A stretch of DNA of 64,000 nt from Haloterrigena sp. KLK7 (GTDB lineage: Archaea > Halobacteriota > Halobacteria > Halobacteriales > Natrialbaceae). The stretch spans positions 1,550,001-1,614,000 of the forward strand of contig NZ_CP149787.1 in NCBI RefSeq assembly GCF_037914945.1, read 5' to 3'. Made by a program: the position numbers and the translations under genes. Under the pieces are notes generated by a model. The model saw only the letters and a list, made by a program, of their open reading frames with translations. It made no database searches and was not told the DNA's origin. Positions 35,613-58,798 of the stretch are shown here, piece after piece; positions within the stretch are counted from its first letter, which is position 1, and every line of letters begins with the position of its first letter.

Positions 35613-35819
35613 GCCGACGATACAGGTCGTCGGGAGAGTTCCACGCCGGTACGATCACGAGAGCCGGTATCGACGGGCGCCGGAGGGTTTCCGAATCGGT
35701 CGCACGGATTCCGGTCGATACACGCCTCTTTCTTCCGGTCGAACGGGTACCGTCCGATGGACGCGGTTCGCTCCGGTCGGGGATCCTCGAGCGACCGCGA
35801 TTCGCACTCGATTCAAGTA

Positions 35820-35880
35820 AATAGATATATATATAAGTAAAAGATATAGAATTACTAGAATAACGAGGATACTACGATAA
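35820..35880 (+). promoter_or_regulatory. AT-rich promoter of the PAP2 gene
   Basis: A long AT-rich tract (35815-35860) contains ATATATATAAG as a TATA candidate around 35824-35834, and GAGGAT (about 35866) may pair with 16S rRNA ten bases before the ATG. This is one of the few genes here with a likely leader and Shine-Dalgarno site. Confidence 0.45.
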
Positions 35881-36737
35881 TGGCACTGGCTAATATGCTC
35901 CTCCTGACCGTCCTCGCCGTCCTGGCCGGGTTGACGATGACGTGTTGTCTCTGCCTCGACCGCGAGAAACTCCGCCGAACCGTCGGTGAGTACGATTACC
36001 GACTCCGGGAAGTCGCCCCGTATCTCGGCGTCGCGGCGCTGTTCTTCCTGACTAAGCGGGCGACTCACGGCTACAGCGTGAAACTCTCGCACGCGCTCGA
36101 CTGGGATATCACGGCCGAACTCTACGCCGTCGAAGGCGAGTTCGTCGCACACCTCCAGCGTATCGATCCACCGGCTATGCTGGAGTTCTTCTCAATCATG
36201 TACATGTTCGGCTTTCCGTTCCTCCTGGTGACCGCGCCGATCCTCTACTTCGCGTTGCCCTCCCAGCGCCACCTCAAGGAGTTGCTCATCGCGTACGTGC
36301 TCAACTACGTGATCGGCGCGATCTGTTACACGCTGTTCATCGCGTACGGACCGCGAAACCATCTGTCGACCGTCGAGGGCCTCATGTACGACTTCTACCC
36401 GCAAACGCAGGACATGACGTCGGCGGTCTCGGCGAACACGGACGTGTTCCCGTCGCTGCACACGTCGCTGGCGGTCGTCGTCCTGCTGTTCGCGTGGCGC
36501 TCGCGCCGGGAGTACCCCCGCTGGTTCCCGCTCGCCGCGTTCGTGGTCTCCAGCGTCGTCTTCTCGACGATGTACCTGGGCATCCACTGGTTGACGGACG
36601 TCGTGGCCGGCCTCGTCCTCGGCGTGGGAAGCGTCTACGCCGCGGAACGGATCGTCGCCCGCTCGGAAGGCGACGCCGGTCGGGTGACCGTTCCCGGCGA
36701 CCGCGAGGAGGGGATCGCGTCCGACGCGACCGACTGA
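35880..36737 (+). CDS. PAP2 family phosphatase (Aur1/inositol phosphorylceramide synthase-like)
   Basis: This is a 285-residue membrane protein with about six to seven hydrophobic segments. The phosphatase motifs are FPSLHTS (the PSGH-type block) and YLGIHWLTDVVAG (the SRxxxxxHxxxD-type block). The preceding YGPRNHL resembles the PAP2_3/Aur1 subgroup. It probably acts on a lipid phosphate or polyprenyl diphosphate at the membrane surface; the exact substrate is not evident. A Cys-rich patch (MTCCLCLD) lies in the first loop. Confidence 0.9.
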   Translation: MALANMLLLTVLAVLAGLTMTCCLCLDREKLRRTVGEYDYRLREVAPYLGVAALFFLTKRATHGYSVKLSHALDWDITAELYAVEGEFVAHLQRIDPPAMLEFFSIMYMFGFPFLLVTAPILYFALPSQRHLKELLIAYVLNYVIGAICYTLFIAYGPRNHLSTVEGLMYDFYPQTQDMTSAVSANTDVFPSLHTSLAVVVLLFAWRSRREYPRWFPLAAFVVSSVVFSTMYLGIHWLTDVVAGLVLGVGSVYAAERIVARSEGDAGRVTVPGDREEGIASDATD

Positions 36738-41712: not shown

Positions 41713-42261
41713 TCAGTCCGCGCTCGCGTTGGCGGACGAGGCGGTGGTCGCCGCCGTCGCTCCGGAGACGGTCCCGGTCGCGTCCGGAATCTCGCGCTGT
41801 CGAGCGTCGATCGCCGCACGGAACGCCCGAGCGAGCCGCTGAACCCGGTCCACCGAATACGACTGCCGCGCGTCGGGCCGTCGTTCGCTCGAGTCGCGGT
41901 CGTCGGACGCCGTCCCGACGAGCGGAACGCGGTCGACGAGCAGCGAGAGGAGCCGGCGGAGCCGATCCGCCGGCGAGCGGTCTCGAGTCGCGTCGGCTTC
42001 GGTCGTCGCTCCTGCAGGTACATCCGATGCCCGTTTCTCGCACTCGACGTAGCCCTCGAGTCGCGCCCGAATCGTCTCCAGTTCGCGGAGCGTGAGTTCG
42101 CCCGTCGGATCGACGCCCGTGATATCGACTAGCAGGTCGCGATGGGGCTCGAGCGAGAGCCGCCACTGTCCGTCCTCGCCGTCGAGTCCCTCGACCGGCG
42201 GTGGCATCCGTTCTCCGTCGACGCGAATCGGTAGTTCCCCACCCATGAGTCGTCGAATCAT
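41713..42261 (-). CDS. haloarchaeal hypothetical protein
   Basis: This is a 182-residue protein that I do not recognise. The N-terminal 70 residues look structured (MGGELPIRVDGERMPPP, DGQWRLSLEPHRDLLVDITGVDPTGELTLRELETI). The rest is Asp/Arg/Ser/Ala-rich and probably less ordered. The ATG at 42261 is about 30 bases after a minus-strand CTATTATC box; an ATG at 42246 would drop five residues. It is divergent from the phosphatase-ppk operon and shares a promoter element with it. The 281 bases to its left, from 41432, hold nothing I recognise. Confidence 0.7.
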   Translation of the reverse strand: MIRRLMGGELPIRVDGERMPPPVEGLDGEDGQWRLSLEPHRDLLVDITGVDPTGELTLRELETIRARLEGYVECEKRASDVPAGATTEADATRDRSPADRLRRLLSLLVDRVPLVGTASDDRDSSERRPDARQSYSVDRVQRLARAFRAAIDARQREIPDATGTVSGATAATTASSANASAD

Positions 42262-42286
42262 ACTGACTAATATGTATTTAATACTT

Positions 42287-42334
42287 TGGATAATAGATGT
42301 ACGTTCGAAAACGTATTCTCGGAATTCGAACGTA
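42287..42334 (-). promoter_or_regulatory. promoter of the 41713-42261 gene with TTCGAACGTA inverted pair
   Basis: On the minus strand TTCGAACGTA (42309-42300) runs directly into a TATA-like CATCTATTATCC, whose centre is about 31 bases before the ATG at 42261. A second copy in the opposite orientation lies at 42325-42334, making a ten-base inverted repeat with a 15-base spacer. Confidence 0.55.
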
Positions 42335-42592
42335 GAATCCGATGATAGCGGTACCTCTTTTCGATATCGAACGCCCCTTCCGCTCGGCGGAGGGGAGTAC
42401 GGAGTACCCGGTCGATCGATCCATCGTTCCGATTCGAACTCGCCGCTCGTCCCGTTCTGGCCGGTCTAATGCCCTATTCCGTCTGTTCTGATTCACCGTC
42501 AGTGTACGTACTCCGGATCGAACTTCGGTGCGTTCCGTTTCGAGAGCCGAATCGAATCGTCTCCAAGAGTGGATATGATGGACTATATACCG

Positions 42593-42617
42593 ATACGTAT
42601 TCGAACGTATATAAAAT
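42593..42617 (+). promoter_or_regulatory. promoter of the phosphatase-ppk operon with TTCGAACGTA element
   Basis: TTCGAACGTA (42600-42609) runs directly into TATAAAAT (42610-42617). The element is embedded in the palindrome ATACGT-ATTCGA-ACGTAT (42593-42610). Transcription is predicted at about 42640, giving a leader of about 23 bases before the GTG at 42663. Confidence 0.6.
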
Positions 42618-42662
42618 ATAACATCTTATCTCTGATTTTTCGAAGCTTTTGGTAGGAAACTC

Positions 42663-43352
42663 GTGACGATTGTTCCATCCGCTGCCGACGACGAGGTATC
42701 GTTCGACCATCAGTGTCTCGACGCCGACTCCTACGACGATGTCTACGTCATCGGCGACGTTCACGGCTGTCTCGACTCCCTCGAGCGGTTGCTCTCGACG
42801 CTCGAGTTCGGCCCGAACGATCTCGGCGTGTTCGTCGGAGATCTCGTGCGGAAGGGACCGGAGAGCAAGGCGGTCCTCGAGCGAGTCAGGGACTCGCCGC
42901 AGTTGCAGTCGGTCAGGGGCAACAACGAGCAGAAACTCCTCGACGACGAGGCCGACCTCCCGGATCTCGAGCCGGCCGATTACCGGTACCTCGAGTCGCT
43001 GCCGACCGCCATCTCGTGGGACGACCACCTCGTCGTCCACGGCGGCGTCGATCCGACGCGATCGCTCCCCGACCACTCGGATCGAGACCTGCTGACGATG
43101 CGGAGTCCGAACGGCGACGGCTACGACGGCCCGTTCTGGTTCGACGAGTACGCGGGCCCGCTGCGGGTCTTTTTCGGCCACACCGTTCTCGACGAGCCCC
43201 TCGACCGCGAGTGGGCCGTCGGTCTCGATACCGGCTGCGTCTACGGCGGCCGGCTCACGGCCTATGACCTCCGCGGCGAGCGGTTCGTGAGCGTCTCGAC
43301 GCCCGAGCACCAGCCGCGCCCGGACGAGAAGTTCGCCGAACCTGCGGAGTGA
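42663..43352 (+). CDS. PPP-type serine/threonine (or diadenosine/bis-nucleoside) phosphatase
   Basis: This is a 229-residue calcineurin-like phosphatase of the PPP/PrpE/ApaH group: VIGDVHGCLDSL (metal block), FVGDLVRKGPES, VRGNNEQKLL (the GNHE block with Asn for His), VVHGGVDP, and FFGHTVLDEPL. The GNNE variation occurs in some small PPP enzymes and may alter metal binding. The start is a GTG at 42663. It lies seven bases before the polyphosphate kinase gene, so they are one operon. It could act on phosphoproteins or a polyphosphate-linked nucleotide; neither is shown. Confidence 0.9.
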   Translation: MTIVPSAADDEVSFDHQCLDADSYDDVYVIGDVHGCLDSLERLLSTLEFGPNDLGVFVGDLVRKGPESKAVLERVRDSPQLQSVRGNNEQKLLDDEADLPDLEPADYRYLESLPTAISWDDHLVVHGGVDPTRSLPDHSDRDLLTMRSPNGDGYDGPFWFDEYAGPLRVFFGHTVLDEPLDREWAVGLDTGCVYGGRLTAYDLRGERFVSVSTPEHQPRPDEKFAEPAE

Positions 43353-43359
43353 GATCGGG

Positions 43360-45819
43360 ATGAACGGGGATGACACATCCGAAGCCGATCGATCGGAGCA
43401 GTGGAATCGACCGACCGAACGACCGAACCGCACGACCCAGGACGACGACGTACCGACCGCTCGAGCGATGAGCGACGGCGGTTCGTCGGGGGACGACGCC
43501 GACGCGACGGCCGAGGACGACGCGACGCTCGCGTACGATACGGGTGCCGACGACGCGCCCGCCGCTGACCCCGACGATGGAACCGGGTCCGAGCCCGACG
43601 CAGTCGATGCCGAGGACCGTGGACCCGACGCCGACGAATCCGAGCCGACCAGCGCCCTCCCCGCCGACACGTTGTCGGTCGACGAGGCGAGCGTCGCGGA
43701 CGCCGCGGCGACGACCGACTCGGCCTCGGAAGGGGACGTCGTTCGGGCCGAGTCCGTCGATCTCTCGGACCCGCGCTACTACCTCAACCGCGAACACAGC
43801 GTCCTCGAATTCCAGCGTCGCGTCCTCCACGAGGCCATGGACGAGAAGAACCCGCTGCTCGAGCGGGTGAAGTTCCTCGCGATCTTCACGACGAACGTCG
43901 ACGAGTTCATCCGGAAACGCGTCGGGGGGCTCAAACAGCAGATCGCCGCGGGCATCACCGAGGAAACGCCCGACGGCCGCACGCCCCGCGAACAGTGGCG
44001 CGAGGTCCTGGCGGAGGCCCGTTCGCTGCTCGAGCGCCAGAGCCGCTGCTACCGCGAGGAGATCCGACCCGCCCTCCACGAGGAAGGGATCCACATCGTC
44101 GACTACGACGAGCTCTCGACCGCCGAGCAACGGGAGGTTCGCGACTACTTCGAGAGCTCGGTCCTGCCGACCCTGACCCCGCTGACGTTCGATCCGGCCC
44201 ATCCCTTCCCGTTCATCTCGAACCAGAGCCTCTCGCTGGCCGTCCTGACTCGGGAACGACCCGGCGCCGATCTCACGTTCTCGCGGGTGAAGATCCCGCG
44301 CAACCAGGTCCGGTTCGTCCAGCTCGGCGACGACGACCGCTACGTGCTCCTCGAGGACATCGTTCGGGCGAACCTCGACCTGCTGTTCCCGGACGTCGAG
44401 GTCGTCGATACGGCCCTGTTCCGGGTGACGCGAAACGCCGAGGTCCGCCGCGACGAGGAGGTCGCCGAGGACCTCATCGAGATGATCGAGGAGGTCTTAG
44501 AGGAGCGTCGGTTCGCCACCGTCGTGCGCCTCGAGATCGAGGAGGACGCGCCCGAGGGAATCCTCGAAATCCTCCGGCGTGAACTCGAACTCGACGAGCG
44601 GGAGGTGTTCCACCTCGACGGGCCGCTGGACTACCGGGACTTCTTCGAACTGGCCGACCTCGACCGCGAGGAGCTGCAGTTGCCCGACTGGACGCCCCAA
44701 CCGCATCCGCGGCTGGGAACCCGGGGGGACGGCCGCCCCATCTTCGACGTGATCCGCGACCGCGACGTCCTCGTCCACCACCCCTACCACGCCTTCGAGG
44801 ACACCGTCCAGCGGTTCTTAGAGGAGGCGGCCGAGGATCCCGACGTGCTGGCGATCAAGGCGGCGATCTACCGCACGGCCAGCGACTCGAAGATCATCGA
44901 GACGCTCATCGATGCCGCCCGCAACGGGAAACAGGTCGCGGTCATGGTCGAGCTCAAGGCCCGCTTCGACGAGGAGAACAACCTCGAGTGGGCCAAGAAA
45001 CTCGAGGAAGCGGGGATCCACGTCGCCTACGGGACGATCGGCTACAAGACCCACACGAAGACGTCGTTGGTCGTCCGCGAGGAAGACGACGGCGTGCAAC
45101 TCTACTCCCACATCGGCACCGGCAACTACCACTCCGAGACCGCCAAGCAGTACGAGGATCTCGGCCTGCTGACCGCCGATCACGACATCGGGCAGGACCT
45201 CGTGCGGGTGTTCAACTACTTCACGGGCCACTCGATGCACCGCGACTACCGCAAACTCCTGATCGCCCCCGGCAACATGCGCGAGCGGTTCGTCGACCTC
45301 GTCCGGACGGTCGCCCGGCGCGCTCGGGACGGTGATAACGGCCGAATCGTCGCCAAGATGAACCGACTGGAGGACCCGCAGCTCGTTCGGGAACTCTATC
45401 GCGCGTCGATGGCCGGCGTCGACATCGACCTCATCGTTCGCGACATCTGTCGGCTCCGTCCCGGTCTCGAGGACGTCAGCGAGAACATCACTGTCCACAG
45501 CGTCGTCGGCCGGTTCCTCGAGCACTCGCGGATCTTCTACTTCCGGGTAGGCGACGAGGACTGCTATTACACCGGCTCGGCCGACTGGATGACCCGAAAC
45601 CTCGACAACCGCGTCGAGGCGGTCACGCCGATCGAGGACCCGCGGCTCCAGTCCCGCCTCGACGAGATCCTCGAGACGCTCCTGCAGGACACCCGAAACC
45701 GGTGGGTGATGCAATCGGACGGCACCTACGAGCGGTGCCGGAAGCGGGTCGACGAGGCGACGACGGACGCCCACGCGACGTTCATGGAATCGGCTCGAGA
45801 ACGGACGACGCGACACTGA
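43360..45819 (+). CDS. ppk1: polyphosphate kinase 1 with acidic N-terminal extension
   Basis: PPK1 reversibly transfers the ATP gamma-phosphate to polyphosphate. The 819-residue protein opens with about 125 Asp/Ala/Ser/Thr-rich residues unlike other PPKs. Then comes the family N domain (RYYLNREHSVLEFQRRVLHEA, FLAIFTTNVDEFIRKRVGGL), the head domain, and two PLD-like catalytic domains. The phosphorylated His is in GYKTHTKTSLV and the second catalytic His in LEHSRIFYF. The GTGNYH and GSADWMTRNL blocks are also present. It is co-transcribed with the phosphatase upstream. An in-frame ATG at 43468 would remove 36 residues. Confidence 0.95.
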   Translation: MNGDDTSEADRSEQWNRPTERPNRTTQDDDVPTARAMSDGGSSGDDADATAEDDATLAYDTGADDAPAADPDDGTGSEPDAVDAEDRGPDADESEPTSALPADTLSVDEASVADAAATTDSASEGDVVRAESVDLSDPRYYLNREHSVLEFQRRVLHEAMDEKNPLLERVKFLAIFTTNVDEFIRKRVGGLKQQIAAGITEETPDGRTPREQWREVLAEARSLLERQSRCYREEIRPALHEEGIHIVDYDELSTAEQREVRDYFESSVLPTLTPLTFDPAHPFPFISNQSLSLAVLTRERPGADLTFSRVKIPRNQVRFVQLGDDDRYVLLEDIVRANLDLLFPDVEVVDTALFRVTRNAEVRRDEEVAEDLIEMIEEVLEERRFATVVRLEIEEDAPEGILEILRRELELDEREVFHLDGPLDYRDFFELADLDREELQLPDWTPQPHPRLGTRGDGRPIFDVIRDRDVLVHHPYHAFEDTVQRFLEEAAEDPDVLAIKAAIYRTASDSKIIETLIDAARNGKQVAVMVELKARFDEENNLEWAKKLEEAGIHVAYGTIGYKTHTKTSLVVREEDDGVQLYSHIGTGNYHSETAKQYEDLGLLTADHDIGQDLVRVFNYFTGHSMHRDYRKLLIAPGNMRERFVDLVRTVARRARDGDNGRIVAKMNRLEDPQLVRELYRASMAGVDIDLIVRDICRLRPGLEDVSENITVHSVVGRFLEHSRIFYFRVGDEDCYYTGSADWMTRNLDNRVEAVTPIEDPRLQSRLDEILETLLQDTRNRWVMQSDGTYERCRKRVDEATTDAHATFMESARERTTRH

Positions 45820-58732: not shown

Positions 58733-58798
58733 TTTGTGAGGGGCTCCACAAAAGATTAGACATCTCTAAACATAGGTTTAGTAGCATACGCTATATAG
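58733..58798 (-). promoter_or_regulatory. promoter with tandem palindromes upstream of the manganese-transporter gene
   Basis: On the minus strand CTATATAG (58791-58798) is a TATA box. Between it and the predicted start (about 58767) lie two overlapping inverted repeats: CTAAAC-ATAG-GTTTAG (58766-58781) and TTAGA-CATC-TCTAA (58756-58769). A third inverted repeat, TTTGTG...CACAAA (58733-58752), lies in the leader and could form a hairpin. TTAG/CTAA arms are typical of DtxR/MntR-family operators. Confidence 0.55.

Follow-up and report, generated by a model that had tools for sequence, protein, structure and literature searches.

The phosphatase-ppk1 operon of Haloterrigena sp. KLK7 is transcribed away from a hypothetical gene, and a 416-base intergenic region separates the two. 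The original prediction held that both divergent promoters carry one ten-base element, TTCGAACGTA. Is this decamer a control site, and does it tie polyphosphate synthesis to phosphate status? We analyzed a window of 64 kb (contig 1, 1550001-1614000, of the 4.64 Mb genome) and compared it to genomes of the same genus and family, the closest named relative among the matches being Haloterrigena salina JCM 13891 (94% phosphatase identity). ORF starts are simple reading-frame calls rather than annotation. The ATG at 42246 is the probable start of the hypothetical gene, because the upstream ATG at 42261 is missing or followed by a stop in the siblings. The features of the locus are:

41713-42246, minus strand: hypothetical 177-aa protein, start at 42246 preferred over 42261
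42276-42283, minus strand: conserved TATA TATTAAAT of the divergent hypothetical gene, putative core promoter
42299-42316, minus strand: minus-promoter module ATACGTTTTCGAACGTAC (arm-N4-arm), contains the decamer at 42300-42309; found in 5/5 genus genomes with the gene
42325-42334, plus strand: third decamer copy, inverted relative to the minus-promoter copy; only in KLK7 and G024
42584-42599, plus strand: exact box pair TATATACCGATACGTA, corresponding to TAYRTA-N4-TAYRTA; one of 4 exact sites in the genome
42593-42610, plus strand: plus-promoter module ATACGTATTCGAACGTAT, with the TAYRTA-like boxes ATACGTATTC and GAACGTATAT one turn apart; contains the decamer at 42600-42609
42620-42630, plus strand: conserved BRE/TATA AACATCTTATC of the phosphatase-ppk1 operon, putative core promoter, from conservation
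42663-43352, plus strand: calcineurin-like phosphoesterase, first gene of the operon
43360-45819, plus strand: polyphosphate kinase 1 (ppk1), 7 bases after the phosphoesterase gene

A search of the 64-kb window located all three predicted copies of TTCGAACGTA, at 42300-42309 (minus), 42325-42334 (plus) and 42600-42609 (plus), with the flanking bases as described, and no other copy even when one mismatch was allowed (3 observed versus 3.82 expected, and thus no enrichment). The first two copies face each other and form the predicted inverted pair at 42300-42334, and the copy at the plus promoter indeed sits in an imperfect palindrome (42593-42610). The third copy, at 42325-42334, is kept in two of five genus genomes, KLK7 itself and G024, and is possibly a distal half box. 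A distal palindrome centered on TACGTA (42500-42515) is imperfect in KLK7 (CAGTGTACGTACTCCG) and lies in a poorly conserved stretch; four siblings have CGGAGTACGTACTCCG, CGGAATACGTATTCCG or CGAAGTACGTACTTCG there, the changes on one arm being paired by changes on the other. The complete KLK7 genome contains 11 copies of the decamer, 8 of them away from this locus and several inside genes. In a genome scan for copies within 40 bases upstream of starts, none of the 8 outside copies was seen in front of a credited ORF (ORFs of at least 120 aa). A regulon defined by the decamer thus fails the very check that was proposed for it, and we rejected it.

We compared both promoters among the five genomes of the genus that contain both genes. 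The conserved unit in these genomes is an arm-N4-arm module, approximately RTACGTW-N4-AACGTAY. At the plus promoter, 5/5 genomes have constant arms (RTAYGTA and AACRTAT) and N4 is free (TTCG, TTCA, CTGC, TTCA and CTTC). The minus promoter carries ATACGTT-N4-AACGTA(C/T) in 5/5 genomes, and the sole change besides the last base maps to the spacer. As the plus-side spacer varies while the arms stay, the decamer mixes spacer and arm. By this comparison it is the N4 spacer plus one arm and no control site by itself, and the idea of the decamer as the functional unit had to be given up. An operator-like element common to both divergent promoters had also been predicted, and the arm-N4-arm module, kept on each side in all five genomes, appears to be such an element. 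The sequence common to the two promoter copies extends beyond the decamer (ATACGT(T/A)TTCGAACGTA, identical at 16 of 17 positions). The 4.64 Mb genome contains ATACGTNNTCGAACGTA at exactly two positions, the promoters of this locus, and allowing one mismatch yields no further site.

The core promoters were assigned by conservation. CTTAT(C/T) at 42625-42630 is found in 8/8 orthologous plus promoters from two genera and is part of a AACATATAAACGRCTTATC-like block found repeatedly across the family. TATAAAAT, present in 3/8 of these promoters, was rejected as the TATA box. On the minus strand, TATTAAAT (42283-42276) is found in 4/5 genus genomes, and the fifth differs by one change. About 15 bases separate the module from the conserved TATA on both strands, and the decamer thus does not abut the two TATA boxes as had been claimed.

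Upstream of the plus TATA, boxes follow each other in ten-base steps, CTATATACCG ATACGTATTC GAACGTATAT AAAATATAAC. Read in this register, TTCGAACGTA is the seam of the successive boxes ATACGTATTC and GAACGTATAT, the second and third step. In the exact pair at 42584-42599, the first box together with the preceding C is CTATATAC (42583-42590), and further boxes of the series occupy 42593-42599 and 42603-42610. The exact pair TAYRTA-N4-TAYRTA is present at the orthologous plus promoter in 6/6 genus genomes, and the boxes are kept across species close upstream of the conserved BRE/TATA. Phosphatase promoters from other genera contain CTATATAG-like boxes about 33 bases before TATA, many of them with an additional CTATA ten bases earlier. 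Of 62 phosphatase loci from other genera, 45 contain TAYRTA 80 to 60 bases before the predicted start, where base composition predicts 2.1 (68 of 77 rows of the phosphatase set were used, after exclusion of 9 weak or short rows). Box positions are more scattered in 48 named loci from other families, for which the starts are less certain (24/48 at -150 to -100, 8/48 at -80 to -60).

Similar boxes mark the promoters of phosphate transport genes. Family pstS promoters follow the expression CTATATAG-N2..4-TCATAGTAG-N2-TACTTATC. We sampled 30 loci among the best-scoring of more than 150 matches, with box positions counted from the twin-arginine motif rather than from the start codon; 29 loci could be parsed, and L190 was left out. 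In this best-scoring sample, TAYRTA falls into one 20-base bin in 29/29 parsed loci, versus 2.1 expected, and the full two-element expression fits 25/29.

The KLK7 genome contains four exact TAYRTA-N4-TAYRTA sites, namely at the phosphatase-ppk1 promoter, at both pstS promoters and in front of a predicted secreted nuclease gene; PstS proteins were identified by TIGR02136. The last site (L207; contig 2 of G000, 245388-245403) is followed after 18 bases by an ORF whose product has staphylococcal-nuclease (SNase) and lamin-tail domains and a signal-like N terminus, a candidate DNA-scavenging enzyme. The six genus genomes together contain 23 distinct exact pairs, counting a TA run in G025 once. 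The ppk operon accounts for 6, pstS-1 for 6 and pstS-2 for 5 of these (17/23), and 6 are found elsewhere, including the nuclease site. Across the family, the 23 of 61 searched genomes with a complete list of sites, three of the six genus genomes among them, were tallied and gave 62 exact pairs. Of these, 24 precede pstS, 6 in the intergenic region between the phosphatase and the hypothetical gene, 4 before genes for PF12974 phosphonate-binding proteins (L314, L315, L316 and L323, from four genomes of two other genera) and 3 in TA runs; at the other 25, no phosphorus gene was recognized. Two of the 6 intergenic sites, both from genus g4, are 15 bases away from the homologue of the hypothetical gene. 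Two genomes of genus g9 (L327, L328) have the conserved pair TACGTACYGTTACGTA in common, located in front of an ORF or in an intergenic position near a TrkA-type potassium protein, and no phosphorus gene was recognized there.

A problem with this analysis is the shortness and high AT content of the box pair. When one mismatch is tolerated, the KLK7 genome yields 35 matches, compared with 30 for a reversed-pattern control; exact matches in the six genus genomes number 30 versus 18, and in many genomes the match number is not distinct from the control. Since the number of matches barely exceeds the control, the case rests on their location. The pattern was furthermore framed after viewing the ppk and pstS promoters, and independent evidence thus comes from the nuclease and phosphonate genes alone. 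When we scored the window with a fixed-register pstS matrix, the plus promoter ranked 12th and the minus promoter 17th of 127906 positions, no higher than other AT-rich spots. The top match (17.6), at 35809-35856 (plus), falls into an AT-rich promoter; the gene that directly follows (35880-36737) encodes a PAP2-superfamily phosphatase and is possibly a further phosphorus-linked target. Second in this ranking is a copy of CTATATAG at 58791-58798, which precedes by about 75 bases an ORF on the minus strand whose product resembles a membrane protein. CTATATAG alone was rejected as a marker: it occurs at 12 genome places, 2 of them at pst genes, and its reversed control at 20.

These findings suggest that the plus element probably belongs to a haloarchaeal phosphate-regulon promoter of the phosphatase-ppk1 operon; the operon itself very probably is part of that regulon, as far as can be judged from the sequence. 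A link with phosphate, originally raised as a possibility for both transcription units, is supported for the polyphosphate operon, on the basis of phased TAYRTA boxes common to pstS, phosphonate-binding and nuclease genes rather than of the decamer, and is less certain for the hypothetical gene. Homologues of the hypothetical protein were matched in 8 of the 125 family genomes, namely in 5 of the 6 genus genomes including KLK7, in 2 of genus g4 and, weakly, in one more. It shows no Pfam match at E-values up to 1 and no PDB match at E-values up to 0.001, and its predicted structural model is poor (mean pLDDT 63.7). Its promoter maintains the same register, with TACGTT starting 32 bases before TATTAAAT, compared with 31 bases between the start of TACGTA and CTTATC on the plus side. 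In the own genus, both boxes of the minus promoter are one letter off TAYRTA. Genus g4 keeps only part of the module there, with TATATA or TATGTA in the register, and has an exact pair, TACGTATTAGTATGTA, between TATA and the start of the homologous gene in 2/2 genomes. On balance, co-regulation of the hypothetical gene (41713-42246) with the phosphatase-ppk1 operon appears likely, by a modest degree.

It is from the sequence, register, conservation and genome location of the boxes that we infer how they may be used, from binding and the identity of the regulator to the direction of control and the signal. TAYRTA-like boxes about 10 bp apart would present themselves on one face of the DNA, and the series ends one to two turns before BRE/TATA. 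A dimeric regulator would bind adjacent boxes and aid TBP/TFB under phosphate shortage. The hypothetical gene, with its two-box module at an equal distance from its TATA, would be a probable further member of the regulon. The likeliest candidate for the regulator may be a PhoU protein whose N terminus forms a DNA-binding domain of the MazE/AbrB type. One such protein is encoded divergently from pstB in KLK7 (L158:8452-9447, near 1863451-1864446 of contig 1), with a one-mismatch box pair in between, and a similar PhoU-MazE/AbrB protein adjoins a pstS promoter site in a g4 genome (L319). In published work, Haloferax volcanii PhoU2 is predicted to have a DNA-binding N terminus and to act as a phosphate-uptake regulator (PMC6267482), pho-boxes are essential in Halobacterium salinarum pst promoters and are termed PhoU binding motifs (PMC6560208), and H. 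volcanii polyphosphate kinase mRNA is induced by starvation (PMC6560208). Lrp and SirR have been linked to phosphate transport genes (PMC2894021, PMC1502140), and therefore a regulator other than PhoU is possible. As a tentative generalization, the haloarchaea considered here, and perhaps most others, may have a one-component regulon, in which a PhoU-MazE/AbrB fusion would read TAYRTA boxes one helical turn apart and switch as one set pst, ppk1 and the genes for phosphonate binding, for a nuclease that scavenges DNA and for a novel small protein encoded divergently from the polyphosphate operon.

The module could instead be a local operator, in which RTACGTW-N4-AACGTAY would serve only the two divergent promoters and a dedicated regulator would couple the hypothetical gene to the ppk operon independently of a phosphate regulator. 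All 5 genus genomes with the gene retain the near-perfect dyad of the minus promoter, which favors this reading, and zero-mismatch RTACGTWN4WACGTAY sites are confined to this locus in KLK7 and in all six genus genomes, a distribution for which we rejected a genome-wide regulon defined by the palindrome. The plus-promoter arms, however, fit a box register common to other genera and to pstS, no regulator gene adjoins the module, and the hypothetical protein, with its poor model, shows no known DNA-binding domain. We consider a local operator unlikely.

Even less probable is that the locus represents AT-rich promoter DNA with chance repeats and no specific function. We estimated chance levels from dinucleotide shuffles of the 416-base intergenic region. 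A 10-mer occurring at least twice was found in 858/2000 shuffles, and a twice-shared decamer is hence ordinary, whereas three copies of a 10-mer (8/2000 shuffles) or a pair matching at 16 of 17 positions (1/500) are indeed unusual. The good pstS-matrix scores of AT-rich places are consistent with a chance origin. The 16-of-17 pair argues against it, as do the placement of the box in one narrow bin in 45/62 phosphatase promoters and 29/29 best-scoring pstS promoters (about 2 expected in each) and the exact pairs landing on phosphorus genes. The decamer as an alternative, TFB-specific BRE, originally suggested and favored by the TATA-like letters that follow it on both strands, is highly improbable, as the conserved TATAs are about 15 bases away and are accompanied by BRE-like letters (AAC or AAAG) of their own, the module is more than one turn away from the conserved BRE/TATA, the decamer letters differ among siblings and none of the 8 copies elsewhere in the genome is at a promoter.

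A phosphate regulon that includes the polyphosphate operon thus remains our preferred reading. The boxes suggest that in these organisms phosphate supply switches polyphosphate making and perhaps also the small hypothetical neighbor gene. Such a short pattern, marking genes for phosphate uptake, polyphosphate synthesis and phosphorus scavenging family-wide, would make the regulon and its regulator directly testable. To our knowledge, the DNA sites of archaeal phosphate control are much less well described than bacterial ones. Furtwangler et al. reportedly described pho-boxes of Halobacterium salinarum pst promoters in 2010. The literature that we searched, which did not extend to this 2010 paper, contained no text that gives the letters of the pho-box or names a ppk operon or the hypothetical gene as box-bearing targets. 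Phosphate-responsive haloarchaeal pst promoters with pho-boxes are already known. The H. salinarum pho-boxes, like the TAYRTA boxes described here, are elements of haloarchaeal pst promoters and are tied to phosphate starvation with PhoU as the named regulator (PMC6560208). We liken the two by promoter context. The bacterial PHO box consists of 11-bp repeats bound by the response regulator PhoB at sigma-70 promoters. Both systems feature direct repeats near one helical turn, with pst and phosphatase targets; the boxes here differ from the PhoB site in their TAYRTA sequence, their step of about 10 bp and the archaeal BRE/TATA. The GvpE UAS is an archaeal upstream activating element that adjoins BRE, an activator site just upstream of BRE/TATA, and its letters and target genes differ from those of the boxes described here. 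The same relationship holds for the Bat UAS (PMC1502140), an activator site that is likewise positioned just upstream of BRE/TATA and has other letters and other target genes.
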